Below are positions 2,441-19,235 of a stretch of 49,175 nucleotides of DNA, in pieces. The DNA comes from Pseudomonadota bacterium (lineage in GTDB: Bacteria > Pseudomonadota > Gammaproteobacteria > Burkholderiales > Rhodocyclaceae), in NCBI GenBank assembly GCA_026399515.1, contig JAPLQT010000043.1, positions 1 through 49,175 on the forward strand. The letters run 5' to 3'. Each line of letters opens with the position of its first letter. Position 1 is the stretch's first letter. A program made the position numbers and the translations under genes. The notes under the pieces are model-generated. The model had not been told where the DNA came from, did no database searches, and was given only the letters and a program-made list of their open reading frames with translations.

Positions 2441-4061
2441 ATGCCTAATCCATACGCCAGCGGCCTCGGCAAATGCGCCGCCAACCATGTTCCCCTGACC
2501 CCACTGAGCTTCATCGAGCGCTCCGCCTATGTGTATCCCGAGTGCGTCGCGGTGATCCACGGGCAGCGCCGCTATACCTGGGCCGAGACCTATGCGCGCA
2601 GCCGTCGCCTGGCCTCGGCGCTGGCGCAGGCAGGTGCGCGCGAGGGCGTCACCGTCGCGGTGATGCTCAACAATACCCCGGAAATGTACGAGTGCCATTT
2701 CGGCATTCCGATGATAGGGGCGGTGTTGAATACCATGAATACCCGCCTCGATCCCGAGAGCATCGCCTTCATGCTGAATCACGGCGAGGCCAAGGTGTTG
2801 ATCGCCGATCGCGAGTATTCGACCATGGTGAAAAAGGCGCTGGCCCAACTGGGCCGGGAGATCCACCTCATCGACGTCGATGATCCAGAATACAGCGGAC
2901 CGGGTGAAAGGTTAGCCGATCTCGAATACGAGGCTTTCATTGCCGGCGGCGACCCCGAGTATGCCTGGCAGAATCCCTCAGACGAATGGAACGCCATCTC
3001 GCTCAACTACACCTCGGGTACCACCGGCAACCCCAAGGGTGTGGTGTATCACCACCGTGGCGCCTATCTCAATGCGGTATCCAATATCGTCTCAATCGGT
3101 TTATCTATGGACGCTGCCGATGTTCCATTGCAACGGCTGGTGCTTCCCCTGGACCATGGCGGCCAATTCCGGCACCAACGTCTGCCTGCGGCGTGTCGAT
3201 GCCAAGCTGATACTCGACGCAATCCGCGAACACAAGGTCACGCATTACTGCGGCGCTCCCATCGTGCATTCGCTGCTGGTCAATGCACCGGCGTCAATGC
3301 GTGCCGGCATCGAGCACAAGGTGAGCGCGCTGGTCGCGGCGGCGCCGCCGCCGGCCTCCGTCATCGAAGGCATGGAGACCATAGGCTTCAATATTACCCA
3401 CGTCTATGGCCTGACCGAGACCTATGGCCCGGCGGCGGTCTGCGCCAAGCACGTCGAGTGGGATAGTCTGAGCATCGACCAGCGCACCGAGCGCAATGGC
3501 CGTCAAGGCGTGCGTTACCACCTGCAGGAAGGCATCACGGTCATGGATAGCCTGAGCATGCAGCCGGTGCCCTGGGACGGCGAGACCATGGGCGAGATCA
3601 TGTTCCGCGGCAACATCGTCATGAAAGGCTACCTCAAGAATCCCCAGGCCACCGAAGAATCCTTCGCCGGCGGCTGGTATCACACCGGCGACCTGGCGGT
3701 GATGCAGCCCGACGGTTACGTCAAGATCAAGGATCGCTCCAAGGACGTGATCATCTCCGGCGGCGAGAATATTTCCTCGGTCGAAGTCGAAGACACTCTG
3801 TATCGTCATCCGGCGGTGATGGCGGTGGCGGTCGTCGCCACGCCCGATCCGAAGTGGGGCGAGGTGCCTTGCGCCTTCATCGAGGTGAAGGAGGGCGCCA
3901 GTGTCAGCGCCGAGGAATTGCGCGACTTCTGCCGCGAGCGCATGGCGCATTTCAAGGTGCCGAAAAGATTCATTTTCGAGGCACTGCCGAAAACCTCGAC
4001 CGGCAAGATCCAGAAGTTCGTCCTGCGCGCGCGCGCCAAGTCTGCTTCGGCAATCGAATAG
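2441..4061 (+). pseudogene. AMP-forming acyl-CoA ligase (DmdB/FadD-like), broken by an internal frameshift
   Basis: Translation from ATG 2441 (AGAGGGA upstream) matches the family of about 540-residue acyl-CoA ligases that includes methylmercaptopropionate-CoA ligase. The first part carries the AMP-binding loop YTSGTTGNPKG and the GAYLNAVSNI segment. Near 3095-3099 the homology moves to another frame, resuming with VYLWTLPMFHCNGWCFPW and continuing to the stop at 4061. The second part keeps the A5 motif (HVYGLTETYG), the GDLAV/DRSKD hinge region and the C-terminal Lys in TSTGKIQKF. Family members have about six residues (like GMPRHA) between the two parts, so about 17 nt seem to be missing. 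A crotonase gene follows 11 nt later. This is either a real mutation or a sequence error; the rest of the gene is intact. Confidence 0.82.
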
Positions 4062-4072
4062 AGGAGATCGCC

Positions 4073-4873
4073 ATGAGTGCCGTCCTGCAATCCGACAATC
4101 CAGCCATCCTGCTGCGCCACGACGACGGTGGCGTGACGACACTGACCCTGAATCGGCCCAGCCAATTCAATTCGCTTTCCGAGGAATTGCTGGGGGAACT
4201 GCAAGCCGCCCTCGACGCCATAGTTGCCGATCAGGGAGTGCGCGTGGTGGTGATCGCCGGCGCCGGCAAGGCCTTTTGTTCCGGCCATGACCTCAAGCAG
4301 ATGCGGGCCAATCCCAGCAAGGAATACATGCAGCAGTTGTTCCGCCGGTGCGGCAAGGTGATGACGACGATAGGCGAAATACCGCAACCGGTGATCGCCC
4401 GGGTGCACGGCATCGCCACCGCGGCGGGCTGTCAACTGGTGGCGGCTTGCGACCTGGCCGTTGCGGCGGATGTTGCGCGCTTTGCGGTCTCCGGCATCAA
4501 CGTCGGGCTGTTCTGCTCCACGCCCGCGGTGGCGCTGGCGCGCAATATGGGGCGCAAACAGGCGATGGAGATGTTGCTCACCGGCGAATTCATCGACGCC
4601 GCCGAGGCGCAGAGACGCGGCCTGGTGAACCGCCTGGCGCCGCTCGACCAGATCGACGCCGAAGTGAAGAAACTCACCGATTCGATCTGCGCCAAGTCGT
4701 CGCTGGCTATCTCCGTGGGCAAGCGGATGTTCTACAAGCAACTGGAAATGGGATTGCAGGGCGCGTACCAGTTGGCATCCGAAACCATGGCTTGCAACAT
4801 GATGGCCGCCGATGCCGGCGAGGGCATCGACGCCTTCATGCAAAAGCGCAAGCCCGAGTGGAAAGGGTGCTAG
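4073..4873 (+). CDS. Enoyl-CoA hydratase/isomerase family protein, ECHDC3-like
   Basis: The start at 4073 has GAGGAG 6 nt upstream and gives 266 residues, normal for a crotonase. The oxyanion-hole segments are present: GAGKAFCSGHDL and AAGCQLVAACDL. The two glutamates of classical enoyl-CoA hydratase are not: GCEL is GCQL here, and the QPE segment is SGINVGLFCSTP. This pattern matches the ECHDC3 branch of the superfamily, whose reaction is poorly defined. The gene sits 11 nt behind an acyl-CoA ligase, so it probably acts on the CoA ester made there. Classical hydratase activity is doubtful; a hydrolase, isomerase or binding role is possible. Confidence 0.87.
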   Translation: MSAVLQSDNPAILLRHDDGGVTTLTLNRPSQFNSLSEELLGELQAALDAIVADQGVRVVVIAGAGKAFCSGHDLKQMRANPSKEYMQQLFRRCGKVMTTIGEIPQPVIARVHGIATAAGCQLVAACDLAVAADVARFAVSGINVGLFCSTPAVALARNMGRKQAMEMLLTGEFIDAAEAQRRGLVNRLAPLDQIDAEVKKLTDSICAKSSLAISVGKRMFYKQLEMGLQGAYQLASETMACNMMAADAGEGIDAFMQKRKPEWKGC

Positions 4874-4930
4874 CTGGTCGCCGGGCGATGGAACTTCGTA
4901 GCCATGGTTTAGTGCTGTGAGCCTGCGCCC

Positions 4931-5947
4931 ATGACGCCACGGAAGATTTCCGCCGCTTGGCTTCGAGGTATCGTGGAAGTACTTCAATCCTCAGAACTGG
5001 ATTCTCGTGCGTTGTTTGCAGAGGCGGGATTGAACTTTGCGGAATTGGATAATTCCGACGCGCGTTTCGAGCCGGAAAAAGTAAGCCTCGTATGGGAATT
5101 GGCCGCCGCGCGCTCTGGCAACCCGGCGATCGGACTGGCATTGTCCGGCGTTACCAGCCCGGCGAGCTTCGATGCGGTCGCCTACGTCATGATGTCATGT
5201 TCGAATCTGCTGGCCGGTTTGGAAAGCTTGATTCGCTACATTGGCATTGTCAGCGATGCAGCCGATATCGGGCTACATAAGGAAACGAACGGGTACGGAG
5301 TAACGATTGAGCTGGTTGGCGGCGGTCGGCCGATACCCAGGCAGCGTGTCGAGTTCGTCGTTCTGACGATTCTGAATTTATGCCGTTGGATTACCGGGAC
5401 CGATCTGCGTCCGCTGGCGGTCGATTTTGTTGATCCGGCCCCAGTGGATGAACGGCCATATGTTGATGCCTTCAAGTGCCCAATGAATTTTGATGCACCA
5501 GTTCATCGCCTGTACTTTTCAAACGCCGACATATCGCGGCAGTTACCGGCCTCTAACCCGGTCATGGCCGAGTTGCTTGGTCGACATGCCGGCGAGCATT
5601 TGAATCGATTGGGAAATACCAGTATTGCTCACAAAGTTCGCGAGCTTGTCATCCGGCGGTTGCAGGAAGGTGACCCATTACGCCGAAAGATCGCCAAAGT
5701 CTTGTGCATGAGCGAACGCACTCTACAGCGGCGATTGCATGAAGAGGGGACATCGTTTCATGACCTCGTGGACGATGCACGCCGAGAGATGGCCAAACAA
5801 TACCTGAGCCGACCCCGCCTTCCCATCGTGCAAACTGCCTATTTGTTGGGTTTTGCCGATCAAAGCACTTTTTCGCGCGCATGCAAGCGTTGGTTTGCTG
5901 TCTCTCCAAGCGAATACCGCTGTCGAAGCGGCAAGGACACGCGCTGA
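4931..5947 (+). CDS. AraC-family transcriptional regulator (Arabinose_bd-type N-terminus)
   Basis: The 338-residue protein has an N-terminal ligand-sensing domain of the arabinose-binding/OruR type (about residues 20-210) and a C-terminal pair of helix-turn-helices. The first is in KIAKVLCMSERTLQRRL and the second in the AYLLGFADQSTFSRACKRWF segment, both hallmarks of AraC/XylS regulators. It lies between a crotonase gene and a secreted esterase gene on the same strand, so it is a likely regulator of the ligase/esterase block. The ligand is unknown. Codon use looks less GC-biased than in the flanking ligases, which may point to separate acquisition. Confidence 0.9.
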   Translation: MTPRKISAAWLRGIVEVLQSSELDSRALFAEAGLNFAELDNSDARFEPEKVSLVWELAAARSGNPAIGLALSGVTSPASFDAVAYVMMSCSNLLAGLESLIRYIGIVSDAADIGLHKETNGYGVTIELVGGGRPIPRQRVEFVVLTILNLCRWITGTDLRPLAVDFVDPAPVDERPYVDAFKCPMNFDAPVHRLYFSNADISRQLPASNPVMAELLGRHAGEHLNRLGNTSIAHKVRELVIRRLQEGDPLRRKIAKVLCMSERTLQRRLHEEGTSFHDLVDDARREMAKQYLSRPRLPIVQTAYLLGFADQSTFSRACKRWFAVSPSEYRCRSGKDTR

Positions 5948-6153
5948 GTTTCCTTCCGGGAATTCCGGTTTCTAAAGATTCCATCGCACCACTTTGTCTC
6001 GTAAAGCAATTAACTTGGCCGACGCAGCCAAAGACGTGCTCCCGGATTTTGCTTAAAGTCAAAGAAAAAAAGCAGAATGGTCCGAGTCGAAGTTGTCTTT
6101 GCTCTCGGGCCGACGGTCCTTGTGGCCAATCCGATCGACTTACGGAGGAATTC

Positions 6154-7893
6154 ATGAAAATTACTAACGTTTTGTGCGTGGCATTTGTCGCCTTGTCTGT
6201 CAGCGTTCTGACTGGGTGCCTGGATAGTACCGAGCTGCCTGCGCCTGAATATCGAGATACAACCTACGGGAAAATTCAGGGGGTTAATGATGCAGTTGGA
6301 AGCGGGACCTACTTCTGGAAGGGCATTCCGTTTGCCAAGCCCCCGGTAGGTGCATTGCGCTGGAAGGCGCCGGTGGATCCCGATTCGTGGTCAGCGACTC
6401 TTGCCACGACCAAGTTCGGTAATGCCTGCGTACAGTATGGGCGGCTATACGGCCCGGGTTCGAACAATACCTACGATGCGACCATCGGCACAACCTTGAA
6501 TACAGCTGTGGGTAATGAAGATTGCCTGACACTGAATATTTGGCGCCCCGCCACAGCAGATACCAACCTCCCCGTGATCTTCTTTATCTACGGCGGGAGC
6601 GACGTTTCGGGCTATACGGCTGACCCAGTGTACAACGGAGCGAATTTGGCAAAGACAGCGAATGCCGTGGTGGTCACAGCCAATTATCGCGTTGGACTTT
6701 TCGGATGGTTGAATCTGCCACAACTCAAGAGCGGTTCCAGCGCCAATGACGATTCCGGTAACTTCGGTACGCTGGATAACATCAAGGCATTGAAGTTCAT
6801 CAATGCCAATATCTCGAATTTCGGCGGAAACGCGGCTAATGTCACGATCATGGGTCAGTCTGCCGGCGCAATCAATGTCTATGCCCTGATGGTGTCGCCC
6901 CAAACCCTGGGAGCGAACATGTTTCATCGTGCGATAGCCATCAGCGGTGGCATTTCCCTCGCCAGCGAACTCCCTCCGGGAAGCATTGCGACGCTGAACC
7001 CGCCATCGACTTATTTGGCGCAAGGCAATGCACTGCTATACAACTTGCTCATCGCCGACGGCAAAGCTACGGACACAACATCGGCCCAGTCCTATGTAGC
7101 GACGCAATCGTCTACTCAGATTGCCGACTATATGCGGGCTAAGACGCCCAGCGACATATTCACTGTCCTGCTCACCAAGCTGGCTGCGGTTGGCTTGTCT
7201 TCTTCGGGGCCGATTCCCGAAGGAACGGTCGTTCCACCCGATCCGATCGCAGCAATGGCTGCCGGCAAGTACAACAAAGTGCCGCTTATGGTGAGTAACA
7301 CCCGTGACGAAGCCAAGCTCTTCGCAGCCTTCCTGGCTCTTTCTCCGGTCTTGGGCGGACAGCCCGGTCTGATCGTCAGCGATGCCACCCGCTTCTCGAT
7401 GATGTACAACTTCAACCCGGATGCCGCTCCAACGCTCAAGGTCACTGACTTGATCAATCCGATCTATCTTCCGGTCACGACTCCGTCCACCGGGTACAAC
7501 GCCAAGACCGACTTGCTCAATAGCATTTTCTTTATTGCAAGCCGCGACAACGTTCTGAATGCTTTGAAGTTGCAACAGTCGAACATCTGGTACTACCAGT
7601 TCAATTGGGCCCAGGAGCCCGCTCCCTGGAACGACGTTTACGGAGCTGCCCACGCATTCGACCTTGCTTTCCTCTTTGGAAACTTTGGGCCGTCGTTGTT
7701 CTCGAATGCTGCCAATGGCACCGCTAACCAGTCGGGGCGACTTGCTTTGTCGAACGCGATGATGAGTGCCGTTGGCGCATTCGCCGCAGCCGGCGACCCC
7801 AACAATGCTGCGCTTGGCGTAACCTGGCCGACATGGCCGAAAAAGCTCATTTTCGACGCGACTCAAACCAACAAGAATATCTCCGTGCAGTGA
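6154..7893 (+). CDS. Type-B carboxylesterase, predicted lipoprotein
   Basis: The ATG at 6154 follows TACGGAGGAATTC, a strong ribosome site, giving 579 residues. It begins with a lipoprotein signal ending in VLTGC, so the mature enzyme is exported and membrane-anchored. The fold is type-B carboxylesterase/cholinesterase: YGKIQGV and FWKGIPFAKPPVG near the start, the EDCLTLNIW motif, the nucleophile elbow GQSAG (Ser about 236), an acidic residue in NTRDEAKLF and His in GAAHAFDL. It would hydrolyse carboxylic esters outside the cytoplasm, and the acids could feed the nearby CoA ligases. The 206-nt leader holds a TTGGC-N7-GCCAA inverted repeat (6015-6031) that could be an operator for the AraC protein. 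A strong hairpin follows the stop. Confidence 0.92.
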   Translation: MKITNVLCVAFVALSVSVLTGCLDSTELPAPEYRDTTYGKIQGVNDAVGSGTYFWKGIPFAKPPVGALRWKAPVDPDSWSATLATTKFGNACVQYGRLYGPGSNNTYDATIGTTLNTAVGNEDCLTLNIWRPATADTNLPVIFFIYGGSDVSGYTADPVYNGANLAKTANAVVVTANYRVGLFGWLNLPQLKSGSSANDDSGNFGTLDNIKALKFINANISNFGGNAANVTIMGQSAGAINVYALMVSPQTLGANMFHRAIAISGGISLASELPPGSIATLNPPSTYLAQGNALLYNLLIADGKATDTTSAQSYVATQSSTQIADYMRAKTPSDIFTVLLTKLAAVGLSSSGPIPEGTVVPPDPIAAMAAGKYNKVPLMVSNTRDEAKLFAAFLALSPVLGGQPGLIVSDATRFSMMYNFNPDAAPTLKVTDLINPIYLPVTTPSTGYNAKTDLLNSIFFIASRDNVLNALKLQQSNIWYYQFNWAQEPAPWNDVYGAAHAFDLAFLFGNFGPSLFSNAANGTANQSGRLALSNAMMSAVGAFAAAGDPNNAALGVTWPTWPKKLIFDATQTNKNISVQ

Positions 7894-7946
7894 GAAACTG
7901 GATGGGCATCGTCGCAACATCATCCTACCGCTGTTCGTGAGCGGCA

Positions 7947-7987
7947 CCGAGCAAACATCTCCGGCGTTGCCGGGGATGTTTGCTCGG
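7947..7987 (+). terminator. Long hairpin after the carboxylesterase gene, terminator-like
   Basis: The two 19-nt arms, 7947-7965 and 7969-7987, are complementary across all 19 positions with a single T:G wobble and enclose a 3-nt GTT loop. The hairpin lies 53 nt after the esterase stop and ends 25 nt before the next start codon. Only CTTT follows, so it lacks the long T-run of a textbook intrinsic terminator. It may instead block 3' exonucleases or work with Rho. Confidence 0.75.
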
Positions 7988-8011
7988 CTTTCGATGAAAG
8001 AAGATTGGGAC

Positions 8012-9532
8012 ATGGATATCGCTGGTCTGCTGTCGCAGCATGCCAAGTACACACCTGGTAATCTGGCACTGGTATTTGAACATCAACGTTTGACCTACGC
8101 AGAGTTGGAAGCGCGCGTCAATCGCTTGGCCCATGCCATGCTGGATGCCGGGATAGGCAAGGGCGATCGGGCCGTCACGGTATTGCCGAATTGCATGGAA
8201 CTGCTGGAAGTCTATTGGGCCTGCGCCAAGACTGGCATAGTCGTAGTCCCCCTTTCTCCGCTGCTGTTGGCAACCGGTCTGGCTTCGTTGCTAGGTGACG
8301 CTGAACCCAGGATAGTCTTTGCCTGCAAGGCAACTCTGCCCTTGTTGCATGCAACCGCCACGCTTACCTCAGGCTCCGCCTTATGTGTTCTGACCGACGG
8401 AGCAGCCGAGGATGGGTATGCGGAGTTCGTCGAGGGAAAGTCGCCGTCCTCTCCACCGGCGGATGTGCTGCCCGACGACGTGTACAACATCATGTACACC
8501 AGCGGCACGACGGGTATGCCGAAAGGGATTATCCATACCCAGCGGATTCGCGCACATTACTGCACTCTGTTCGCCAACGCCTGGAGATTGAAGCCCGAGT
8601 CGGTGGTGCTGCATACCGGGGCGATTATCTTCAACGGCGCCTTCGTGACCTTGATGCCCTGCCTGATGCAAGGCGCCACGTATGTGCTGCACCGGCAGTT
8701 CGATCCGGTCGCGCTGATCGAGACCGTGGCGCGGGAACGTGTGACCCATACCATGCTGGTTCCCTCCCAGATCATTGCGGTGCTGAATGCTCCCAATTTC
8801 GATGCGGCGAAGCTCGCCTCGCTGGAGGTTTTGCTCTCCCTGGGAGCACCTTTGCCGGTGGTTTACAAGGATGTCCTGGAGAATTGCCTGCCGGGCCGTT
8901 TCCACGAATTGTATGGCCTCACCGAGGGCTTCGTGACTATCCTCGACAGGCGCGATGCAATCAGAAAACGCGGCTCGGTCGGTGTGCCGCCGCCCTTTTT
9001 CGAGATGCGCATCATGGCCGAGAACGGCAGCGAGGCAGCGACGGGCGAAGTGGGCGAAATCGTCGGACGAGGGCCGATCCTGATGCCCGGCTATTACCGA
9101 CGACCGGACCTGACCAGCGAGGCGTTGCAGGATGGCTGGTTATATACGGGGGACCTGGGCCATGTCGATGCCGAAGGCTATCTGTACCTGGTCGACCGAA
9201 AGAAAGACATGATCGATTCGGGCGGCGTGAAGGTTTATCCCAGGGACGTGGAAGAAGTGATTTCTGCCCACCCGGCAGTGCTGGAGGCCGTGGTGTTTGG
9301 CATACCGGATACCAAGTGGGGTGAGACGCCCGTCGCGGCGGTGATGCTCAAGACATCCGCTGCCCTCGATCCGGAGACTCTCAAGGCATGGATCAACGAA
9401 CGGGTCGGCGCACGCTACCAGAAGGTCAGCCGAGTAATGATCGTAGATGCGTTTCCCCGCAATGCGGCCGGCAAGATACTCAAGCGCGAGTTACGAGCGC
9501 CCTTTTGGGAAGGCCATGCCGCGAATGTTTGA
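8012..9532 (+). CDS. AMP-forming acyl-CoA ligase (class I adenylate-forming)
   Basis: The 506-residue reading from ATG 8012 begins MDIAGLLSQHAKYTP, the usual opening of this family. An earlier GTG at 7937 would run through the hairpin and is rejected; an ATG at 7994 is possible. Motifs are MYTSGTTGMPKGI (AMP/phosphate loop), HELYGLTEG (A5), YTGDLGHVD (A7), DRKKDMIDSGG (A8 hinge) and the catalytic C-terminal Lys in NAAGKILKREL. The enzyme activates a carboxylic acid to its CoA thioester with ATP. Substrate class cannot be fixed; the neighbouring esterase and importer suggest an imported hydrophobic acid. It may be transcribed separately from the esterase because of the hairpin in front of it. 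Confidence 0.9.
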   Translation: MDIAGLLSQHAKYTPGNLALVFEHQRLTYAELEARVNRLAHAMLDAGIGKGDRAVTVLPNCMELLEVYWACAKTGIVVVPLSPLLLATGLASLLGDAEPRIVFACKATLPLLHATATLTSGSALCVLTDGAAEDGYAEFVEGKSPSSPPADVLPDDVYNIMYTSGTTGMPKGIIHTQRIRAHYCTLFANAWRLKPESVVLHTGAIIFNGAFVTLMPCLMQGATYVLHRQFDPVALIETVARERVTHTMLVPSQIIAVLNAPNFDAAKLASLEVLLSLGAPLPVVYKDVLENCLPGRFHELYGLTEGFVTILDRRDAIRKRGSVGVPPPFFEMRIMAENGSEAATGEVGEIVGRGPILMPGYYRRPDLTSEALQDGWLYTGDLGHVDAEGYLYLVDRKKDMIDSGGVKVYPRDVEEVISAHPAVLEAVVFGIPDTKWGETPVAAVMLKTSAALDPETLKAWINERVGARYQKVSRVMIVDAFPRNAAGKILKRELRAPFWEGHAANV

Positions 9533-9596
9533 GCTTTTCCGGCGCGCCCATCCAACCGGCGGTTGGTCGGCCTTCGAACTGCGGGCGAGCTTGGTA

Positions 9597-9605
9597 TGCT
9601 ATGAT
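9597..9605 (+). promoter_or_regulatory. Candidate extended -10 promoter for the liv-type operon
   Basis: TGCTATGAT combines a TG extension with a TATGAT hexamer (5 of 6 to TATAAT), located about 41 nt before the livG start in an unusually AT-rich patch. No good -35 is visible, as is usual for extended -10 promoters. A small 6-bp hairpin at 9552-9566 lies just upstream, after the ligase stop. Confidence 0.4.
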
Positions 9606-9645
9606 TTAAAGAATATTTACACTTCAATAATAATTATCGGCTGAC

Positions 9646-10321
9646 ATGGCGGACGACTGCATTCTCGAGACACATAATCTCGTCAAGGAGTTCAAGGGCT
9701 TTGTCGCCGTCAATGACGTCAGCCTGAAGGTCAGGCGCGGTCATATCCATGCCCTGATCGGTCCCAATGGAGCGGGCAAGACGACCTGCTTCAACCTGCT
9801 GACCAAATTCCTCGAGCCGACACGCGGCACCATTCGTTTCAACGGGATCGACATCACCCATGATCAGCCGGCGCAGATCGCCCGGCGCGGCATCGTCCGG
9901 TCATTCCAGATATCGGCAGTATTCCCGCATCTGACGGTTCTGGAAAATGTGCGCATTGCCTTGCAGCGACAACTCGGCGATTCGTTTCATTTCTGGCGTA
10001 CCGACAAGTCGCTGTCCAGCCTGGACGCTCGCGCCACGGAACTTCTGGCGGAGGTAGGGCTGGACGCCTACGTGAAGATGGTCGCCGTCGAATTGCCCTA
10101 TGGCCGCAAGCGTGCCCTGGAAATCGCCACCACGCTGGCCCTGGAGCCGGAGCTGATGCTGCTGGATGAGCCTCGTTGCGGGCATTTCCGACACGCTGAC
10201 GGTGCTGGCGCGCGGTGCGGTGCTGGCCGAGGGGCCGTATGCCGAGGTGGCCAGGAACCCGCTGGTGATCGAGGCCTACATGGGCACCGCCGAGCCCGAG
10301 TCGCAGGAGGCTCACGCGTGA
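9646..10321 (+). pseudogene. livG: LivG-like ABC transporter ATPase with an out-of-frame internal deletion
   Basis: The N-terminal part is a normal LivG-type ATPase with Walker A GPNGAGKTT, the insert typical of LivG and Walker B LMLLDEP ending at 10173. Directly after DEP the homology resumes in another frame at 10175 with VAGISDTLTVLARGAVLAEG and continues to a TGA at 10319-10321. Family proteins have about 34 residues between these points, including the D-loop and the switch histidine of VEHN. About 101 nt therefore appear to be lost. Restoring the frame alone would not restore ATPase function. Because of the shift, the N-terminal frame reads straight into livF. The next gene starts at the overlapping GTG. 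The deletion could be real or an assembly collapse. Confidence 0.85.
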
Positions 10322-11037
10322 GCTTGCCGGTGGCGTCCCCCGAATATCTGCGCATCTCCGGCCTCCACGCCTTCTATGGCGAGTCGCACATCCTGCACGG
10401 CATGGATCTGCGGGTTAATCGCGGTGAATGCGTTTCCCTGCTCGGCAGGAACGGGGCCGGCCGTACCACGACGCTGCGGGCCATCCTCGGTCTTACTGGC
10501 AAGCGTAGCGGTTCGATCATGCTGAATGGCCGTGAGACCATAGGCATGGCGACTCACCGCATCGCCCAGTTGGGTGTCGGCTACTGCCCCGAGGAGCGCG
10601 GTATCTATGCCAGCCTGAGTTGCGAGGAAAACCTTCTGCTGCCGCCGCAGGTGGGTAGCGACGGCATGAGTCTGGAGGAGATTTACGCGATGTTTCCGAA
10701 CCTCGCGGAACGCCGCCATAGCCAGGGAACACGACTCTCCGGAGGCGAGCAGCAGATGCTGGCGATGGCGCGTATCCTACGCAGTGGCGCACACCTGCTG
10801 CTGCTCGACGAAATTTCCGAGGGTCTAGCGCCGGTCATCGTGCAGAAACTTGGACAGATCATCGGCCAACTCAAACAGAAAGGTTTTACCATTGTCCTGG
10901 TCGAACAGAACTTCCGGTTTGCCGCACCCCTGGCGGATCGCATGTATATCGTCGAGCATGGTTTGATTGCCGCCGAGATCGCCCAGGGCGAGATCGAGGC
11001 AAAGCAGGAATTGTTACAGGAGTATCTTGGCGTCTGA
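10318..11037 (+). CDS. livF: LivF-like branched-chain-type ABC transporter ATPase
   Basis: The GTG at 10318 overlaps the livG stop (GTGA) and gives 239 residues, the usual LivF length. Motifs are the ABC signature LSGGEQQML, Walker B LLLLDEISEGLAP, and the switch His replaced by Gln in LVEQN, which is common in LivF. The Walker A is GRNGAGRTT, with Arg49 where Lys is expected. It is the second ATPase of a high-affinity importer with the binding protein and two permeases downstream. A 463-residue reading that fuses it to livG results from the upstream deletion, not from a true fusion. The Arg may be a subfamily trait, and I cannot verify that here. Confidence 0.88.
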   Translation: MSLPVASPEYLRISGLHAFYGESHILHGMDLRVNRGECVSLLGRNGAGRTTTLRAILGLTGKRSGSIMLNGRETIGMATHRIAQLGVGYCPEERGIYASLSCEENLLLPPQVGSDGMSLEEIYAMFPNLAERRHSQGTRLSGGEQQMLAMARILRSGAHLLLLDEISEGLAPVIVQKLGQIIGQLKQKGFTIVLVEQNFRFAAPLADRMYIVEHGLIAAEIAQGEIEAKQELLQEYLGV

Positions 11038-11091
11038 TTTTACCGTCGGTCTTACATCCGTTATCGCTACAACATACAGAGGAGAAACACC

Positions 11092-12324
11092 ATGCAACGC
11101 AAACTCTTATCCATCGCACTGGCCGCGCTGCTGATTCCGGCAGCCAACTTCGCTTATGCCCAGGCAAAACCCGCCGCCATGAAAATTTCCGGCGACACGG
11201 TCAAGATCGGAGTCCTCACCGACATGTCGGGGGTGTATTCAGACCTCGGCGGCCAGGGCTCGGTCACTGCCGCACAAATGGCGATCGATGACTACGTCGC
11301 CCAGTACAAACCGAAATTCAAGGTCGAAATGGTCTATGCCGACCACCAGAACAAAGCCGACGTGGGATCGAACAAGGCCCGCGAATGGTATGACACCCAG
11401 GGCGTGGACATGATTACCGACGTGCTCAACTCGGGAGTCGCACTGGCCGTGGCCAAGGTGACGCAGGAAAAAAATCGCATCATGATCAACACCGGCGCCG
11501 CCTCCACCCGGCTAACCAATGAGGACTGCTCGCCGAACACCGTGCATTACGTATATGACACCTATGCCTTGGCGAATGGCCCGGGCAAGGCCGTAACCAA
11601 GGCCGGCGGAGACACCTGGTTCTTCCTGACCGCAGATTATGCTTTCGGCGCGTCGCTCGAAAAGGATACCACCGATGCGGTCAAGGCCAATGGCGGCAAG
11701 GTCATCGGTTCGGTCAAGCATCCGCTGAATGCCTCCGACTTTTCTTCCTTCCTACTCCAGGCACAGGCGTCCAAGGCCAAGGTGGTGGGCCTGGCGAATG
11801 CCGGCGGCGATACGATCAACTCGATCAAGGCCGCCAACGAATTCGGCCTGACCAAGAATCAGACCATTGTCGGATTGCTTACCACCATCATCGATATTCA
11901 CGCGCTTGGCCTGCCGACGACCCAGGGCATGATGTTCACCGAAGGCTACTACTGGAATCTCAACGACGACACTCGCGCCTGGAGCCGCAAGTTCTTCGCC
12001 AAGCACAAGAAGATGCCGAGCATGCTGCATGCGGGAACCTATTCGGCCGTGACCACCTATCTCAAGGCGGTGCAGGCGGCGGGTACCGACGAAGCCGGCC
12101 CGGTCATGAAGAAACTCAAGGAACTGCCGATCAACGATTCGTTCGCCAAGAACGGCAAGATCCGCGCGGATGGGCGCATGGTCCACGACATGTATCTGGT
12201 CCAGGTGAAGAAGCCGGCCGAGTCCAAGGAACCCTGGGATTACTACAACATCAAGGCGGTGATTCCGGGCGACGAGGCGTTCCAGCCGATGGCCTTGTCG
12301 CGTTGTCCCTTGGTGAAGAAATAA
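11092..12324 (+). CDS. Periplasmic substrate-binding protein of a LivK/HAAT-type importer
   Basis: The start at 11092 follows AGAGGAGAAACACC. The 410-residue product opens with a Sec signal peptide (MQRKLLSIALAALLIP, likely cleaved after AYA-Q near residue 24). The mature part starts with KIGVLTDMSGVYSDLGGQG, the standard opening of type I periplasmic binding proteins for branched-chain amino acids and related acids, and it includes the NTGAAS and FFLTADYAFG segments of this family. The permease genes follow after an intergenic hairpin. In beta-proteobacteria such systems next to acyl-CoA ligases often serve aromatic or other organic acids, so the ligand need not be an amino acid. That assignment is inference. 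Confidence 0.9.
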   Translation: MQRKLLSIALAALLIPAANFAYAQAKPAAMKISGDTVKIGVLTDMSGVYSDLGGQGSVTAAQMAIDDYVAQYKPKFKVEMVYADHQNKADVGSNKAREWYDTQGVDMITDVLNSGVALAVAKVTQEKNRIMINTGAASTRLTNEDCSPNTVHYVYDTYALANGPGKAVTKAGGDTWFFLTADYAFGASLEKDTTDAVKANGGKVIGSVKHPLNASDFSSFLLQAQASKAKVVGLANAGGDTINSIKAANEFGLTKNQTIVGLLTTIIDIHALGLPTTQGMMFTEGYYWNLNDDTRAWSRKFFAKHKKMPSMLHAGTYSAVTTYLKAVQAAGTDEAGPVMKKLKELPINDSFAKNGKIRADGRMVHDMYLVQVKKPAESKEPWDYYNIKAVIPGDEAFQPMALSRCPLVKK

Positions 12325-12335
12325 AAACTTTCTCT

Positions 12336-12364
12336 CCCGCTCCCGCAGATCCGGCGGGAGCGGG
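12336..12364 (+). promoter_or_regulatory. Intercistronic hairpin between the binding-protein and permease genes
   Basis: A perfect 11-bp GC-rich stem (12336-12346 with 12354-12364) encloses a 7-nt loop. Its 3' arm runs into GGGGAGGA, the ribosome site of livH, so folding would hide part of that site and also protect the 3' end of the upstream message. No T-run follows, so it is more likely an expression-balancing or RNA-stability element than a full terminator. This fits the excess of binding protein over permease that such operons need. Confidence 0.65.
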
Positions 12365-12376
12365 GAGGACATAGCC

Positions 12377-13264
12377 ATGACTGAAATTTTCGGCATTCCG
12401 ATCCAGGCTTTGATGGGCCAGTTGACGCTGGGCCTGGTCAGCGGCTCGTTCTACGCCATGCTGAGCCTGGGGCTGGCGGTCATCTTCGGCATGCTGAACA
12501 TCATCAATTTCACCCATGGCGCCCTCTACATGCTGGGAGCATTCCTGGCGTGGATGGGAATGGACTACCTACAAATCGGCTACTGGCCGGCGCTGCTGCT
12601 GTCGCCGCTGGTGGTCGGCGTGTTCGGCATCGTGGTTGAACGCAGCATGCTGCAATGGCTCTACAAGCTGGATCACCTCTACGGACTGTTGTTGACCTTC
12701 GGGCTGGCGCTGATGCTGGAAGGGTTGTTCACCAACGCCTATGGGGTGTCCGGCCAACCCTATTCGATCCCCGAGGAATTCATGGGCGCTTTCAACCTCG
12801 GATTCATGTTTCTGCCGAAATATCGCGCCTGGATCATCGTCGCTTCGCTGCTGGTGTGTTTCGCCACCTGGTTTGTGATTGAAAAGACCCGACTCGGAGC
12901 CAACCTGCGCGCCGCCACCGAGAATCCCAAGCTGACCCAGGCCTTCGGCATCAACGTGCCGCTAATGGTGATGCTGACCTACGGTTTCGGCTGCGCCCTG
13001 GCGGGTTTCGCCGGCGTGCTGGCGGCGCCGGCGATCCAGGTCAGTCCGCTGATGGGCTCGAACCTGATCATCGTCGTCTTCGCCGTGGTGGTGATCGGCG
13101 GCATGGGGTCTATCCTCGGCTCCATACTCACCGGCCTCGGCCTCGGCGTGATCGAAGGCCTGACCAAGGTGTTTTATCCCGAGGCTTCGGCGACGGTGGT
13201 GTTCATCATCATGGCCATCGTCCTGATGATACGGCCGGCCGGATTGTTCGGGAAAGAGAAATGA
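12377..13264 (+). CDS. livH: LivH-like branched-chain-type ABC permease
   Basis: This 295-residue integral membrane protein carries the LivH family pattern: GLVSGSFYAMLSLGLAVIFG at the N-terminus, NFTHGALYMLGAF, the EAA-type loop around RAATENPKLTQAFGIN, and GMGSILGSILTGLGLG near the end. About eight hydrophobic segments are visible. Its ribosome site GGGGAGGA lies at the foot of the upstream hairpin. The stop overlaps the ATG of livM (ATGA), so the two permease subunits are translationally coupled. Confidence 0.92.
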   Translation: MTEIFGIPIQALMGQLTLGLVSGSFYAMLSLGLAVIFGMLNIINFTHGALYMLGAFLAWMGMDYLQIGYWPALLLSPLVVGVFGIVVERSMLQWLYKLDHLYGLLLTFGLALMLEGLFTNAYGVSGQPYSIPEEFMGAFNLGFMFLPKYRAWIIVASLLVCFATWFVIEKTRLGANLRAATENPKLTQAFGINVPLMVMLTYGFGCALAGFAGVLAAPAIQVSPLMGSNLIIVVFAVVVIGGMGSILGSILTGLGLGVIEGLTKVFYPEASATVVFIIMAIVLMIRPAGLFGKEK

Positions 13265-14196
13265 GCAGGAGCATGTTCGGTTATCTGGCGCTGCTTGTTC
13301 TCGGCCTGTTCGCGCCTTTCCTTTTCTATCCAGTGCTGGTGATGAAGGTGCTGTGCTTCGCCTTATTTGCCTGCGCCTTCAACCTGCTGCTCGGGTATAC
13401 GGGACTGCTGTCGTTCGGGCATGCGGCGTTTTTCGGCACGGCAGCCTATGCTGCCGGACACGCCATCAAGGTCTGGGGCTTGCCCACGGAACTCGGATTG
13501 CTGACCGGCGTCCTGGCTTCGACGCTGCTGGGTTGGGCTTTCGGCAGCCTGGCGATCCGCCGCCTGGGTATTTATTTCGCCATGGTCACCCTGGCGCTGG
13601 CACAGATGATGTATTTCCTGTTTCTACAGGCGCCGTTCACCGGCGGCGAAGACGGTTTGCAGGGCGTCCCGCGCGGCACCCTGCTGGGCTTCATCGATCT
13701 CGCCAACGACCTGAATTTATATTACTTCGTTCTGGCGATTTTCGTCGCCGCCTTCTGGCTGATTTACCGCACCATCCATTCGCCTTTCGGACAAGTGCTC
13801 AAGGCCATCCGGGAAAACGAGGCGCGGGCGATTTCGCTCGGCTACGACGTCGCGAAATACAAACTGCTGGCCTTCGTGCTGTCCGCCGCCCTGGCAGGGT
13901 TGGCCGGCGCCACCAAGATGCTGGTCTTCAAGTTTGCCACGCTGACCGACGCCCGCTGGCACCAGTCGGGCGAAGTGGTGCTGATGACCATCCTCGGCGG
14001 CATGGGCACGGTGCTGGGCCCGGTGGTTGGCTCGACGGTCATCGTGGTCTTGCAGAACGAACTGGCCGACAAGGTCGGATCGCTGGTCACAGTCATCATG
14101 GGATCGATCTTCGTCGTCTGCGTGCTGCTCTTCCGTCGCGGCATCGTCGGCGAAATCGCGGCGCTCTACAAGCGCATGTTGGGGCTCAAAACTTAG
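13261..14196 (+). CDS. livM: LivM-like branched-chain-type ABC permease
   Basis: The start overlaps the livH stop by 4 nt. The 311 residues are strongly hydrophobic, with the LivM landmarks NLLLGYTGLLSFGHAAFFG, the cytoplasmic loop LKAIRENEARAISLGYDV, LSAALAGLAGA and GGMGTVLGPVVGS. It is the last gene of the importer operon and the second half of its transmembrane channel. The following gene is on the opposite strand, with 36 nt between stop codons. Confidence 0.92.
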   Translation: MSRSMFGYLALLVLGLFAPFLFYPVLVMKVLCFALFACAFNLLLGYTGLLSFGHAAFFGTAAYAAGHAIKVWGLPTELGLLTGVLASTLLGWAFGSLAIRRLGIYFAMVTLALAQMMYFLFLQAPFTGGEDGLQGVPRGTLLGFIDLANDLNLYYFVLAIFVAAFWLIYRTIHSPFGQVLKAIRENEARAISLGYDVAKYKLLAFVLSAALAGLAGATKMLVFKFATLTDARWHQSGEVVLMTILGGMGTVLGPVVGSTVIVVLQNELADKVGSLVTVIMGSIFVVCVLLFRRGIVGEIAALYKRMLGLKT

Positions 14197-14232
14197 AGAA
14201 GAGACGAAAGACCCGCGGTCTCGGTTGCCTTT

Positions 14233-14742
14233 CTACGGATGACGATCAAATTGCCACTTGCCGTCCCCTTTCACGAATACGAAAGTGTCGGTGTAAGGCG
14301 AAGCAGCTTTTTTTATCGGGTCTTGGAAGCTAGCAGTGACCGTGATCGTCGAATCTCCAGTGACTTTCCAATCGTACATTTTTTCAGGGTAGTATCTTCC
14401 CCCTCCGACGAGCTCTAGGGGAGGGAGCCGAAGACGCTGAGCCCCGGCGTGCGTCGCAATATGGAACATTCGCTCAGGCGGAATGTCTTTCAAATTTAAG
14501 TGCGCGAAAAAAAGCACAATAGGATTAATGCCATCTTTAATCACATCAAGATCAGCTTGCGAGGCAACACCTGTCAGATCGACACGCTGTTTGATCTTAC
14601 GATAGGGTTGCTCCTTGAGGAAACTCGTATCTGGAGCGAAGAGTGCCTGTCCGCTGGCTACGACGGGTACTACCAGCATGGCAGTCGCGAGGGCGGTCGC
14701 GTTCCAGAAACGGCTGAGTCGGAACGTTGAAGTGTGCAGCAT
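14233..14742 (-). CDS. Hypothetical secreted protein, function unknown
   Basis: I do not recognise this 169-residue protein. It opens with an arginine-containing region and a hydrophobic stretch ending VVPVVASGQA, which looks like a Sec signal peptide cleaved near residue 32. The mature part contains DLTGVASQADLDVIKDGINP, and a C-terminal half of alternating residues ending VKGDGKWQFDRHP, reminiscent of small periplasmic beta-sheet domains with a WKV-type strand. No catalytic motif is visible. Base composition is more AT-rich than in the livM and etfB neighbours, and it lies on the opposite strand together with a toxin-antitoxin pair, suggesting later arrival. Confidence 0.6.
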   Translation of the reverse strand: MLHTSTFRLSRFWNATALATAMLVVPVVASGQALFAPDTSFLKEQPYRKIKQRVDLTGVASQADLDVIKDGINPIVLFFAHLNLKDIPPERMFHIATHAGAQRLRLPPLELVGGGRYYPEKMYDWKVTGDSTITVTASFQDPIKKAASPYTDTFVFVKGDGKWQFDRHP

Positions 14743-14790
14743 ATTGCGTCCCTAATTAAATAATCAAAGGTTCCAGGCTCGGACTATTTC

Positions 14791-15213
14791 TTAAATCGCT
14801 TCCACGCCCATCCTCAAGCGTTTCGCATTGGCGGACATCACGCCATCCAGCGTAGCGACGGATTGCGCGCCGATATCCCTCGCCACCGCCAGATGCAGCG
14901 CGTCGCCGGCCCGTAGCCGTTGAGTGTGTTGCTTCGCCAGATCGGCGGCATCTCGAAATGCGGATCGGCTGACGGGAACGATGCGCAGACCGCTTACCGT
15001 CAGCCGATCGAACTCCTTGCGAACCGCTTTGGCGTTGGCTTCGGAAAGCTCACCCGATCGCACTTTGATCGAAATAGCACTGTCGAACTCCGTCAGCAAC
15101 CAGTCACAACCGACAGGAACTTCTGTCAACCCGGCAAACCATGCCTTCACGTCCGCGGTTCTTGGCTCCGGAACCAGCAGCGATACGGCGACACTGGTAT
15201 CGAGATAAATCAT
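14791..15213 (-). CDS. PIN-domain ribonuclease, VapC-type toxin
   Basis: The 140-residue protein is a typical PIN domain. Acidic residues expected to hold the metal ions are Asp5 in MIYLDTS, Glu42 in LLTEF, Asp104 in RAGDALHLAVA and Asp123 in TLDGVM. Such toxins cleave RNA, often tRNA or rRNA sites, when their antitoxin is degraded. The ATG overlaps the stop of the upstream AbrB-type gene (ATGA), the standard antitoxin-first arrangement. RNA target unknown. Confidence 0.88.
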   Translation of the reverse strand: MIYLDTSVAVSLLVPEPRTADVKAWFAGLTEVPVGCDWLLTEFDSAISIKVRSGELSEANAKAVRKEFDRLTVSGLRIVPVSRSAFRDAADLAKQHTQRLRAGDALHLAVARDIGAQSVATLDGVMSANAKRLRMGVEAI

Positions 15214-15461
15214 CAGTAGCGATCATCCTGGCGCATCATCTCGACGGTCGTCGTCGTTATCGGCATCTTGGCGTGCAGCTTGCCCAACCGTTCCAGGAAT
15301 GCCGCCTTATCGAACGCCGGAGCCGGCGTCAGCTTGATCTCGCCGACCGGCGTAACTTCCGCCTCGACGGTGTCGCCTTCCCGCAGACCGGCGGCACGGG
15401 TGCATTCCACCGGTAGCCGGACGGCCAGGCTGTTTCCCCATTTCGCCAGTTGCAATTTCAT
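15213..15461 (-). CDS. AbrB/MazE-type (SpoVT-AbrB fold) antitoxin
   Basis: Starting at ATG 15461 (GGAG 11 nt upstream on the minus strand), the protein has 82 residues and begins MKLQLAKWGNSLAVRLP, the swapped-hairpin DNA-binding motif of AbrB-like antitoxins. The C-terminal part, after about residue 45, is charged and would wrap the toxin. A longer reading from 15521 lacks a ribosome site and adds residues foreign to the family. It is expected to bind its own promoter just upstream and to neutralise the PIN protein. Confidence 0.85.
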   Translation of the reverse strand: MKLQLAKWGNSLAVRLPVECTRAAGLREGDTVEAEVTPVGEIKLTPAPAFDKAAFLERLGKLHAKMPITTTTVEMMRQDDRY

Positions 15462-15802
15462 GAGTAACTCCGGTGTCTCTACGAGTAGATACATGGTAGT
15501 CAGGAATCCGGTAAATTGCAAGAAGTATCAAGGATTCGGGCTCGGGTCTTCGCGTCTTCTCGGCGAATACCCAACGCCGCCCAACACGGCGGGATGGGTG
15601 GCGGGGGTGACGATTTGTGATAGCCATGAGGAGCCCGCAGCACCCATCTCGCCGTGCGCTCCCGGTCATGACTGAACTTGCCGCAAGGGACGCAAGCGCC
15701 GGTGCCCCTGATCCATATCAAACACTAGCCTCGCGCTGGCCCCGGCTGGGGAAAATTGGAGCATAATTTGCGGCTGATTTTCCCCTTATGAGGACTGCTG
15801 AC
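15462..15802. other. Intergenic region between the toxin-antitoxin pair and etfB
   Basis: These 341 nt hold the divergent promoters of the antitoxin (minus) and the etf operon (plus). On the plus strand CATAAT at about 15761-15766 is a possible -10 for etfB, without a convincing -35. A short GC hairpin (CCGCC-N6-GGCGG, near 15577) is also visible. I see no conserved protein in any frame. Confidence 0.4.
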
Positions 15803-16549
15803 TTGAAGATACTGGTACCCGTCAAGCGCGTGGTGGATTACAACGTCAAGGTGCGCGTCAAGGCTGACGGCACGGGCGTCGATCTGGCCAACGTCAAGAT
15901 GTCGATGAACCCTTTCGACGAAATCGCCATCGAGGAAGCTGTCAGGCTTCGTGAAGCCGGTGTCGCCACCGAAGTCATCGCCGTCAGCTGCGGCGTCACG
16001 GCCTGCCAGGAAACCCTGCGCACCGCCATGGCGATCGGCGCCGACCGCGCCATCCTGGTCGAAAGCGACGTCGACTTGCAGCCGTTGGCGGTGGCCAAGC
16101 TGATCAAGGCCGTGGCCGAGAAGGAGCAGCCGCAGATCGTCATTTTCGGCAAGCAAGCCATCGACGACGATGCCAACCAGGGCCAGATGTTCGCCGCCCT
16201 GATGGGCTGGCCGCAGGCCACCTTCGCCTCGAAGGTGGTGGTGGCCGAGGGTAAAGCGACAGTGACCCGCGAAATCGACGGCGGGGCCGAGATCCTGGAG
16301 TTCAAGCTGCCCTGCGTCGTCACCACCGACCTGCGCCTCAACGAGCCGCGCTACGCCACCTTGCCGAACATCATGAAGGCCAAGAAGAAACAGCTCGACA
16401 ACCTCAAGCCGGCCGACCTGGGCGTGGATGTGACGCCGCGCCTGACTACCTTGAAAGTCTCCGAGCCGCCCAAGCGCGGCGCCGGTGTCAAAGTCGCCGA
16501 CGTCAAGGAACTGGTGGCCAAACTCAAAAATGAAGCGAAGGTGATCTGA
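15803..16549 (+). CDS. etfB: Electron transfer flavoprotein beta subunit
   Basis: I choose the TTG at 15803 because family proteins begin with [19 protein letters not shown], and AGGA lies 8 nt before it; an ATG at 15788 adds five residues and has no ribosome site. The resulting 248 residues match the EtfB length. The [14 protein letters not shown] segment and the AMP/ADP-binding region DDDANQGQM are present, and the recognition-loop segment near [10 protein letters not shown] is typical. EtfB pairs with EtfA to carry electrons from acyl-CoA dehydrogenases to ETF-quinone oxidoreductase. The stop overlaps the etfA ATG by one base. Confidence 0.92.
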
Positions 16550-17401
16550 TGTCCATACTCGTTATCGCCGAACACGACAACGCCGGCCTCAAGGCCTCCA
16601 CCCTCAATACGATTGCCGCCGCCCAGAAGATCGGCGGCGAAATCCACGTACTGGTCGCCGGCAGCGGCTGTGCCGCGGTGGCAGCCGCAGCCGCCAAGCT
16701 CGCCGGCGTTGCGAAGGTCAAGCTGGCCGATGCCGCCCACTATGCCGATCAAACCGCCGAGAACGTCGCGGCGCTGGTCGTCGCCAACGCCGCCGGCTAC
16801 ACTCACATCCTGGCCCCGGCCACCGGCGCCGGCAAGAACATGCTGCCGCGGGTCGCGGCGCTGCTTGATGTGGCGCAGATCTCGGAAATCACCGCGGTGG
16901 ACAGCCCGGACACCTTCGTGCGGCCGACCTATGCCGGCAATGCCAAACGCGGCTGTCGAATCCATAGCCGCCGTGGCCGACCTGGGCCTGACCAAACTCG
17001 TCGGCCGTGAGATCGCCAAGAGTGCGCGGCCTGAACTCGCCGCCGCCAAAGTCATTGTTTCGGGCGGTCGCGGCATGGGTTCCGGCGAGAAATATCACCA
17101 ACTGCTGGAACCGCTGGCCGACAAGCTCAACGCGGCGCTCGGCGCCTCGCGCGCGGCGGTGGACGCCGGCTTCGTGCCGAACGACTACCAGGTCGGTCAG
17201 ACCGGCAAGATCGTCGCCCCGCAACTGTACTTCGCCATCGGCATCTCCGGTGCGATCCAGCATCTGGCGGGCATGAAGGACAGCAAGGTGATCGTCGCCA
17301 TCAACAAGGACCCGGATGCGCCGATTTTCCAGGTCGCCGATTACGGCCTGGTGGCCGATCTGTTCCAGGCCGTGCCGGAACTGGTGACTGAACTGGGCTA
17401 A
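16549..17401 (+). pseudogene. etfA: Electron transfer flavoprotein alpha subunit with an out-of-frame internal deletion
   Basis: The first part, from ATG 16549, is a normal EtfA N-terminal domain up to RPTYAGNA (16944). Homology then resumes in another frame at 16949 with [14 protein letters not shown] and runs to TAA 17401. That second part holds the entire FAD-binding half: [34 protein letters not shown] and [11 protein letters not shown]. Family members carry about 28 residues between the parts, including the ITVRTT strand, so about 80 nt are missing. Both halves are otherwise well conserved. Since etfB upstream and the dehydrogenase downstream are intact, a recent mutation or an assembly fault is more likely than long decay. 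Confidence 0.85.
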
Positions 17402-17423: not shown

Positions 17424-19235
17424 ATGAGTGCCTATACCCCACCCTTGAAAGACATGCAATTCGTGTTGCGCGAACTCGCCGGCATCGATCGCGTTGCGCA
17501 GTTGCCCGGCTACGAAGAAGCCGCGCCTGAAGTCGTCGAGGCGATTCTGGAAGAGGCTGGCAAGTTCGCCGCGGGCGTGCTGGCGCCTTTGAATTTCAGC
17601 GGTGACCAGGAGGGCGCGAAGTGGTCAGCCGATGACGGGGGGAGGGTGACGACGCCCGCAGGGTTCAAGGAAGCCTATGCACAGTTCGCCGAGGCGGGCT
17701 GGAACGGCCTGGCCTGCGACCAAGAGTATGGCGGGCAGGGCCTGCCCAAGCTGGTGTCGGCGGCGGTGCTGGAAATGTGGAAAGCTTCCAATATGTCCTT
17801 CTCGCTGTGCCCGATGCTGACGCTGGGCGCCATCGAGGCGTTGCAACTGTGTGGCTCGACGCAGCAGAAGGCGGCCTACCTGCCCAATATGATCTCCGGC
17901 AAATGGACCGGCACCATGAACCTGACCGAGCCGCAGGCCGGTTCGGATCTGGCGGCCATCCGCAGCCGCGCAGTGCCGCAGGGCGACGGCAGCTACAAGA
18001 TATTCGGCAACAAGATCTTCATCACCTACGGCGACCACGACATGGCCGAGAACATCGTCCACCTGGTGCTGGCGCGTACGCCGGACGCGCCGGAAGGTGT
18101 CAAGGGCATCTCCCTGTTCGTCGTGCCGAAATTCATGGTGCAGCCCGACGGTAGCCTGGGCGCGCGCAACGACGCCTACTGCGTGTCGATCGAACACAAG
18201 CTCGGTATCCATGGCAGCCCGACCTGCGTGATGGCCTTCGGCGATGCGGGTAACTTCGGTGGCGGCGCCGTCGGCACGCTGGTGGGCAAGGAGAACGAAG
18301 GCCTCAAATACATGTTCATCATGATGAACGCCGCGCGCTTCGCGGTCGGGCTGGAAGGCCTGGCACTCGGCGAACGCGCCTACCAGCAGGCGCTGGGCTA
18401 TGCGCGCGACCGGGTGCAGGGCCGCGACATCGCCGGCAGCGCCGCCAGCGTGGCGATCCTGCATCATCCCGACGTCCGCCGCATGCTGATGCTGATGAAG
18501 TCGCAGAACGAGGCGATGCGCGCGTTATCTTACACCGTCGCCGCCGCCAACGACGCCGCCGCGCGACACCCGGAAGAGGCGGAACGCAAGCGCAACCAGG
18601 CTTATGTCGACTTGATGATCCCGGTCGTCAAGGGCTGGCTGACGGAGACCAGCAACGAGGTGGCGTCGCTCGGGGTTCAGGTGCACGGCGGCATGGGCTT
18701 CATCGAAGAGACCGGCGCCGCACAACATCTGCGCGACGCCCGCATCACCACCATCTATGAAGGTACTACCGGCATCCAGGCCAACGACCTGATCGGCCGC
18801 AAGATCGCCCGCGAAGGCGGCGCCACGCTCAAGGCGGTGATCGCATTGATGCGCCAGACCGAAGGTGATCTTGACCAGCAGGACAAGCCGGAATTCGCGG
18901 TCATCAAAGCCGCGCTGGCCAACGGAATCAAGGCTGTGGGCGAGGCCGCCGAATACATCGTGGCGCACTATGGCGCCGACATCAAGGCGGTGTCGGTCGG
19001 TGCGGTGCCCTTCCTCAAACTGTTGGGGATCGTCGCGGGGGGGTGGCAGATGGCGTGCGCCGCCCTGGTGGCCGAGTCGAAAATCGCCGGCGGCGATACC
19101 GACGCTTTCTACCCGGCCAAGATCGCCACCACGCGCTTCTATGCCGATCACGTGCTGTCCGCAGCGCCGGGTCTCGCCCACACCGTCATCCATGGTGGCG
19201 CGGGAGCAATGGCGGTCACTGATGAGATGCTCTGA
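17424..19235 (+). CDS. Acyl-CoA dehydrogenase, DmdC-like long form
   Basis: This 603-residue flavoenzyme starts with the short AcdN-type segment (MSAYTPPLKDMQFVLREL), followed by the three acyl-CoA dehydrogenase domains and a C-terminal extension of the kind found in DmdC-like and AidB-neighbouring long forms. The FAD-contacting MNLTEPQAGSDL, the GVKGISLFVVPKF strand and the QVHGGMGFIEETG segment are clear. The catalytic base is probably Glu446 in IYEGTTGIQANDLIGRK. It introduces a 2,3 double bond into an acyl-CoA and passes electrons to the EtfBA pair encoded just upstream. Chain length or ring specificity is not readable. Confidence 0.92.
   Translation: MSAYTPPLKDMQFVLRELAGIDRVAQLPGYEEAAPEVVEAILEEAGKFAAGVLAPLNFSGDQEGAKWSADDGGRVTTPAGFKEAYAQFAEAGWNGLACDQEYGGQGLPKLVSAAVLEMWKASNMSFSLCPMLTLGAIEALQLCGSTQQKAAYLPNMISGKWTGTMNLTEPQAGSDLAAIRSRAVPQGDGSYKIFGNKIFITYGDHDMAENIVHLVLARTPDAPEGVKGISLFVVPKFMVQPDGSLGARNDAYCVSIEHKLGIHGSPTCVMAFGDAGNFGGGAVGTLVGKENEGLKYMFIMMNAARFAVGLEGLALGERAYQQALGYARDRVQGRDIAGSAASVAILHHPDVRRMLMLMKSQNEAMRALSYTVAAANDAAARHPEEAERKRNQAYVDLMIPVVKGWLTETSNEVASLGVQVHGGMGFIEETGAAQHLRDARITTIYEGTTGIQANDLIGRKIAREGGATLKAVIALMRQTEGDLDQQDKPEFAVIKAALANGIKAVGEAAEYIVAHYGADIKAVSVGAVPFLKLLGIVAGGWQMACAALVAESKIAGGDTDAFYPAKIATTRFYADHVLSAAPGLAHTVIHGGAGAMAVTDEML

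Follow-up and report, generated by a model that had tools for sequence, protein, structure and literature searches.

A draft genome of the family Rhodocyclaceae carries a catabolic region in which an acyl-CoA synthetase (ligase) gene, a livG-type ABC transporter ATPase gene, and etfA each lack an internal piece, which raises the question of whether these losses occurred in the organism or in the construction of its sequence. The initial annotation of this region proposed a recent loss of the pathway, a local mutational process such as slippage at hairpins or repeats, or an assembly collapse at difficult sequence. Here, comparison with relatives and a screen of other parts of the genome suggest that the three deletions are probably assembly joins and not biology, contigs having been joined too closely and spurious pseudogenes created as a result.

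Sequence Data and Screening for Frame Breaks

The window, i.e., the whole stretch of 49,175 nucleotides analyzed, is contig 78 of a draft of 5.3 Mb in 139 contigs (95% complete). Among the best 80 matches of its etfA, a set that may omit records of the own genome, the best-matching named records were mostly metagenome-assembled genomes of Rhodocyclales. Frame breaks were sought with a model of the coding frame, for which long ORFs of the genome itself served as training set and which looks for frame switches away from stops and starts. A total of 1,604,211 bases of the genome's own sequence were screened, comprising 41 stretches (829 kb, including the window) and 40 more (775 kb), which were hand-picked and non-random (e.g., L200, on a contig with an odd family match, and L292, on a contig with a match in the search for EtfA paralogues); the stretches of relatives were chosen partly for synteny. 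The pieces on either side of a candidate break were scanned separately against Pfam.

Outside the window, 39 candidates (25 + 14) were obtained, a number that varies with the training set (38 in one training, over all own sequence including the window). Both pieces were scanned for 38 of the 39 and a single piece for the other, which lies at an N run (L279, 2681). Twenty of the 38 were supported as one broken gene, and the other 18 were either undecided or ordinary neighbors such as ThiG and a methyltransferase, S8 and L6, or MgsA and SerRS. For the calculation of the rate, an acetyl-CoA synthetase gene (+2 nt) in stretch L160 was excluded because the stretch had been picked for a split family match, and a second break in IcmF, found by alignment, was included, giving a count of 20. 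Six of these breaks were sized by reference alignment; the other 14 are supported by domains, with several weaker cases among them (e.g., those in a LysR gene, a TonB receptor gene, and the L262 ligase gene). The FecCD break (L189) falls on an N run, and the L192 break lacks no profile positions; without these two, the count is 18. The size of a loss is the net length of the own gene minus that of the reference in tblastn comparisons with the coding ORFs of relatives, some of which represent one gene in two loci.

Three Broken Genes in the Window

Table 1. Positions of the broken genes in the window and size of their losses
Gene	Positions	Strand	Break near	Net change (nt)	Frames
Acyl-CoA synthetase (ligase) gene	2441..4061	+	3093	-17	two frames, ORFs 2441-3466 and 2940-4061
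livG-type ABC ATPase gene	9646..10320	+	10173	-101	
etfA	16549..17401	+	16945	-80 or -83, by reference	

The loss listed for the ligase gene was obtained against 22 of 24 reference ORFs (29 nt against two), and that for livG against 17 of 18 (113 nt against one). In etfA, 83 nt were missing relative to 49 of 96 reference ORFs and 80 nt relative to 41, with other values for the rest. Counted by genome or named locus, 17 supported the 17-nt loss, 11 the 101-nt loss, and 47 and 39 the 83- and 80-nt losses, respectively. DNA alignments with relatives gave the same losses in all three genes. The first estimates of about 17, 101, and 80 nt were thus borne out by both methods, and none of the losses is a multiple of three, as had been pointed out.

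Both ligase pieces matched NF006020 in order (3-217 and 232-544), the upstream piece of livG matched UrtD and LivG models, and the downstream piece of etfA matched EtfA-type models. The broken livG frame continues into livF, forming a single ORF of 463 aa (9646-11037). In the relatives listed, each of the three genes occupies one open frame. The pieces flanking the breaks showed 77-94% amino acid identity to their best four references, in agreement with the original description of both flanks as highly conserved, except that the 47-aa tail of livG had no match in this comparison.

Frame Breaks in Other Parts of the Genome and in Relatives

The initial annotation had seen no such loss in the other genes, roughly 45, which agrees with the findings in the window (59% of which lies under reference genes) but is not true of the genome elsewhere. 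Beyond the window, 1,535,036 own bases (the L160 stretch left out) contained 20 homology-supported frame breaks, in functionally unrelated and often central genes. SpoT lacks 82 nt relative to all 14 reference ORFs (10 genomes), RNase R 31 nt relative to 11 of 12 (8 genomes; the bases around this junction align poorly and the deletion is not clean), one EF-G gene 20 nt relative to 7 of 7 references, and an ABC ATPase gene 14 nt relative to 8 of 8 (4 genomes). IcmF is broken twice, with 47 nt missing at one break (7 of 7 references) and 32 nt (4 of 7) or 29 nt (3 of 7) at the other; the two breaks are approximately 590 nt apart, and the piece between them is 96.9% identical to a relative with an open frame. 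The breaks based on domains include those in xanthine dehydrogenase, aldehyde dehydrogenase, AcrB, GspE, MacB, ketoacyl synthase, NuoH, and a def-linked fmt. The last lacks a long internal stretch, which, given the layout of the protein, presumably covers the active site; elsewhere in the genome, the Fmt C-domain has two weaker matches.

In seven relatives of the same genus or family (531,332 bases), none of seven candidates was a supported break: six were distinct neighboring genes, and one (L170), whose upstream piece had no family match, was undecided. Two of these candidates came from the same screen (both at boundaries between different genes) and six from an earlier training with a looser cut on 371 kb, with one in common. 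At the rate of the genome under study, the probability of zero breaks in 531 kb would be 0.001. Hence, the draft has an excess of gene breaks over its close relatives, distributed across unrelated genes, as would be expected of spurious pseudogenes derived from assembly.

N Runs and the Probable Origin of the Losses

The own sequence contains 13 N runs (12-71 nt long), and none was found in the bases screened from relatives. The ends on both sides of the N run overlap exactly in 3 of the 13, by 26 nt (L184, 11078), 29 nt (L279, 2685), and 16 nt (L285, 10125), whereas 0 of 20,000 random cuts reached an overlap of 10 nt. These three runs constitute independent evidence of faulty joins in this draft, whose gap sizes can thus be off by tens of bases. 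Some N runs could be masked sequence, but masking would not yield exact end overlaps. According to one study, a scaffolder often puts gaps between contigs that overlap (PMC5368935), and the three N gaps between exactly overlapping contig ends resemble the mis-sized gaps described there. Unlike these, the ligase, livG, and etfA junctions contain no N, and the error suggested for them is the opposite one: the gap errors demonstrated here are gaps that are too large at overlapping ends, while joins that are too short would be the same type of error with the opposite sign.

Probably, a small unassembled stretch lay between two contigs (approximately 14-101 nt at the measured breaks and apparently more at fmt), and the join between these contigs left out part or all of it, by which the gene at the join would lose a piece and usually its frame as well. 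Such unmarked joins could have arisen in the same scaffolding or gap-closing step as the N gaps. Assembly errors account for many bacterial pseudogenes, as stated in a further study (PMC11017572); genes of this draft are likewise frameshifted with no apparent evolutionary decay, although the statements cited deal with frameshifts and internal stops generally, tied to coverage and assembler, whereas mostly losses of tens of bases are seen here. Assembly, the third of the origins first proposed, is thus the best supported, in the form of short joins throughout the draft and not of a collapse specific to this region. The three losses are real in the file and probably not real in the organism, which probably has intact ligase, transporter, and ETF genes.

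Several observations, among them the lack of N at the three junctions, run contrary to joins as the origin. First, apparent microhomology of 1-3 nt, judged by eye, is present at junctions and fits real deletions. Second, about one third of blind losses would be expected to stay in frame, in a sample that is biased because it was selected partly by frame change, and no in-frame loss of at least 5 aa common to more than one reference was found in alignments reaching 60% identity and 80 aa; same-frame split alignments were also absent from the list. In addition, an excess of tandem duplications, which would be expected if overlapping ends had been butt-joined too, was not seen by eye.

Selection on the Broken Genes and Genome-Wide Decay

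The pN/pS of the broken pieces in the window was 0.06-0.27, compared with 0.08-0.32 for intact neighbors, and no internal stop was present in the five window pieces compared. The broken genes of the window are under ordinary purifying selection; neither relaxed selection nor further lesions were detected, a state in which a very recent loss would look alike. It is in this form, as real and very recent pseudogenes of a lineage undergoing genome-wide decay by small deletions, the trio included, that a biological origin fares best, and it is nevertheless unlikely. Most junctions are clean, some of them with the short microhomology mentioned above. The genome also has two EtfA paralogues with open, intact-looking frames and a second RelA/SpoT homologue (36% identical) with an open frame, suggesting that some of the losses could be tolerated. 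The middle domain of acyl-CoA dehydrogenases, enzymes that require an ETF, has 22 matches in the genome. However, decay is difficult to reconcile with constraint equal to that of intact neighbors, with the breakage of central genes (IcmF twice), and with the lack of a supported case in the same-genus and same-family stretches. Besides, only three same-frame interruptions without a start codon in the span were listed in the first 41 own stretches (window 11034, L146 374, and L181 6471), the first of which is simply the end of livF. A sudden burst of small deletions that left approximately 60-70 fresh pseudogenes (an extrapolated number), including SpoT and the def-linked fmt, with selection not yet visibly relaxed, appears even more doubtful. 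If the breaks were real, genome decay would be visible here at an unusually early stage.

Pathway Loss, Slippage, and Recoding

That disuse of the pathway led to a joint inactivation of its ligase, transporter, and ETF genes is very improbable. Genuine pathway decay yields pseudogenes in a functional cluster, and the window is similar in that its three frame-broken genes belong to one such cluster; they lie within 14 kb and are also near one another in two relatives (G009 and G013). It differs from such decay in that selection is not relaxed and that breaks also occur in unrelated functions (SpoT, RNase R, EF-G, IcmF, NuoH, GspE, fmt, and others), and the adjoining etfB, enoyl-CoA hydratase, and acyl-CoA dehydrogenase genes have open and constrained frames. 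As similar pieces are missing from unrelated genes of the draft, an assembly origin is more likely than pathway loss, and a loss specific to this pathway was rejected since the breaks found outside the window are not confined to it. The clustering itself, to which the initial annotation had attached meaning, does not stand out, because a background of breaks exists across the genome. At the rate outside the window, the probability of at least three breaks per 49-kb window is 0.027, and approximately 2.9 such windows are expected genome-wide (0.021 and 2.3 windows without the two weak events); clumping of breaks across stretches was at most mild (P 0.06).

Slippage at hairpins or repeats as the local source of all three deletions is still harder to credit. 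Folding was compared with 60 mononucleotide shuffles per segment, using segments of relatives that stand in for the missing own sequence: those of livG (four relatives) and etfA (two relatives) folded no better than shuffled ones (z -1.27 to +0.48), whereas the segment missing from SpoT, outside the window, folded better in both relatives compared (z -2.44 and -2.65). The alignments showed no long direct repeats at the junctions. Restoration of the products by programmed frameshifting or translational bypassing, with which the open and mostly conserved halves would agree, can be practically dismissed, as the relatives have a single open frame and re-phasing cannot restore a product whose conserved sequence is itself absent, not merely out of frame.

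Implications and Additional Observations

Caution is needed when this draft is used to infer the loss of a pathway or the fusion of genes, an example of the latter being the apparent livG-livF ORF. A check that needs no reads is to compare the genome-wide number of frame breaks with that in relatives and to search the borders of N runs for exact overlaps.

Several smaller features were also noted. The acyl-CoA dehydrogenase of the window has four additional residues at 18252 relative to 28 of 28 reference ORFs, with conserved surroundings. The acetyl-CoA synthetase gene of L160 contains two additional nt (a repeated TG) at 13993-14004 relative to the one reference compared, and an AMP-binding family match with one internal TAG is present at 6302-7456 in contig 18 of the genome G000. 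Finally, two small overlapping ORFs on the minus strand (14791-15521), in the interval between the liv genes and etfB, resemble what we take to be a PIN-domain toxin and an AbrB-like antitoxin.
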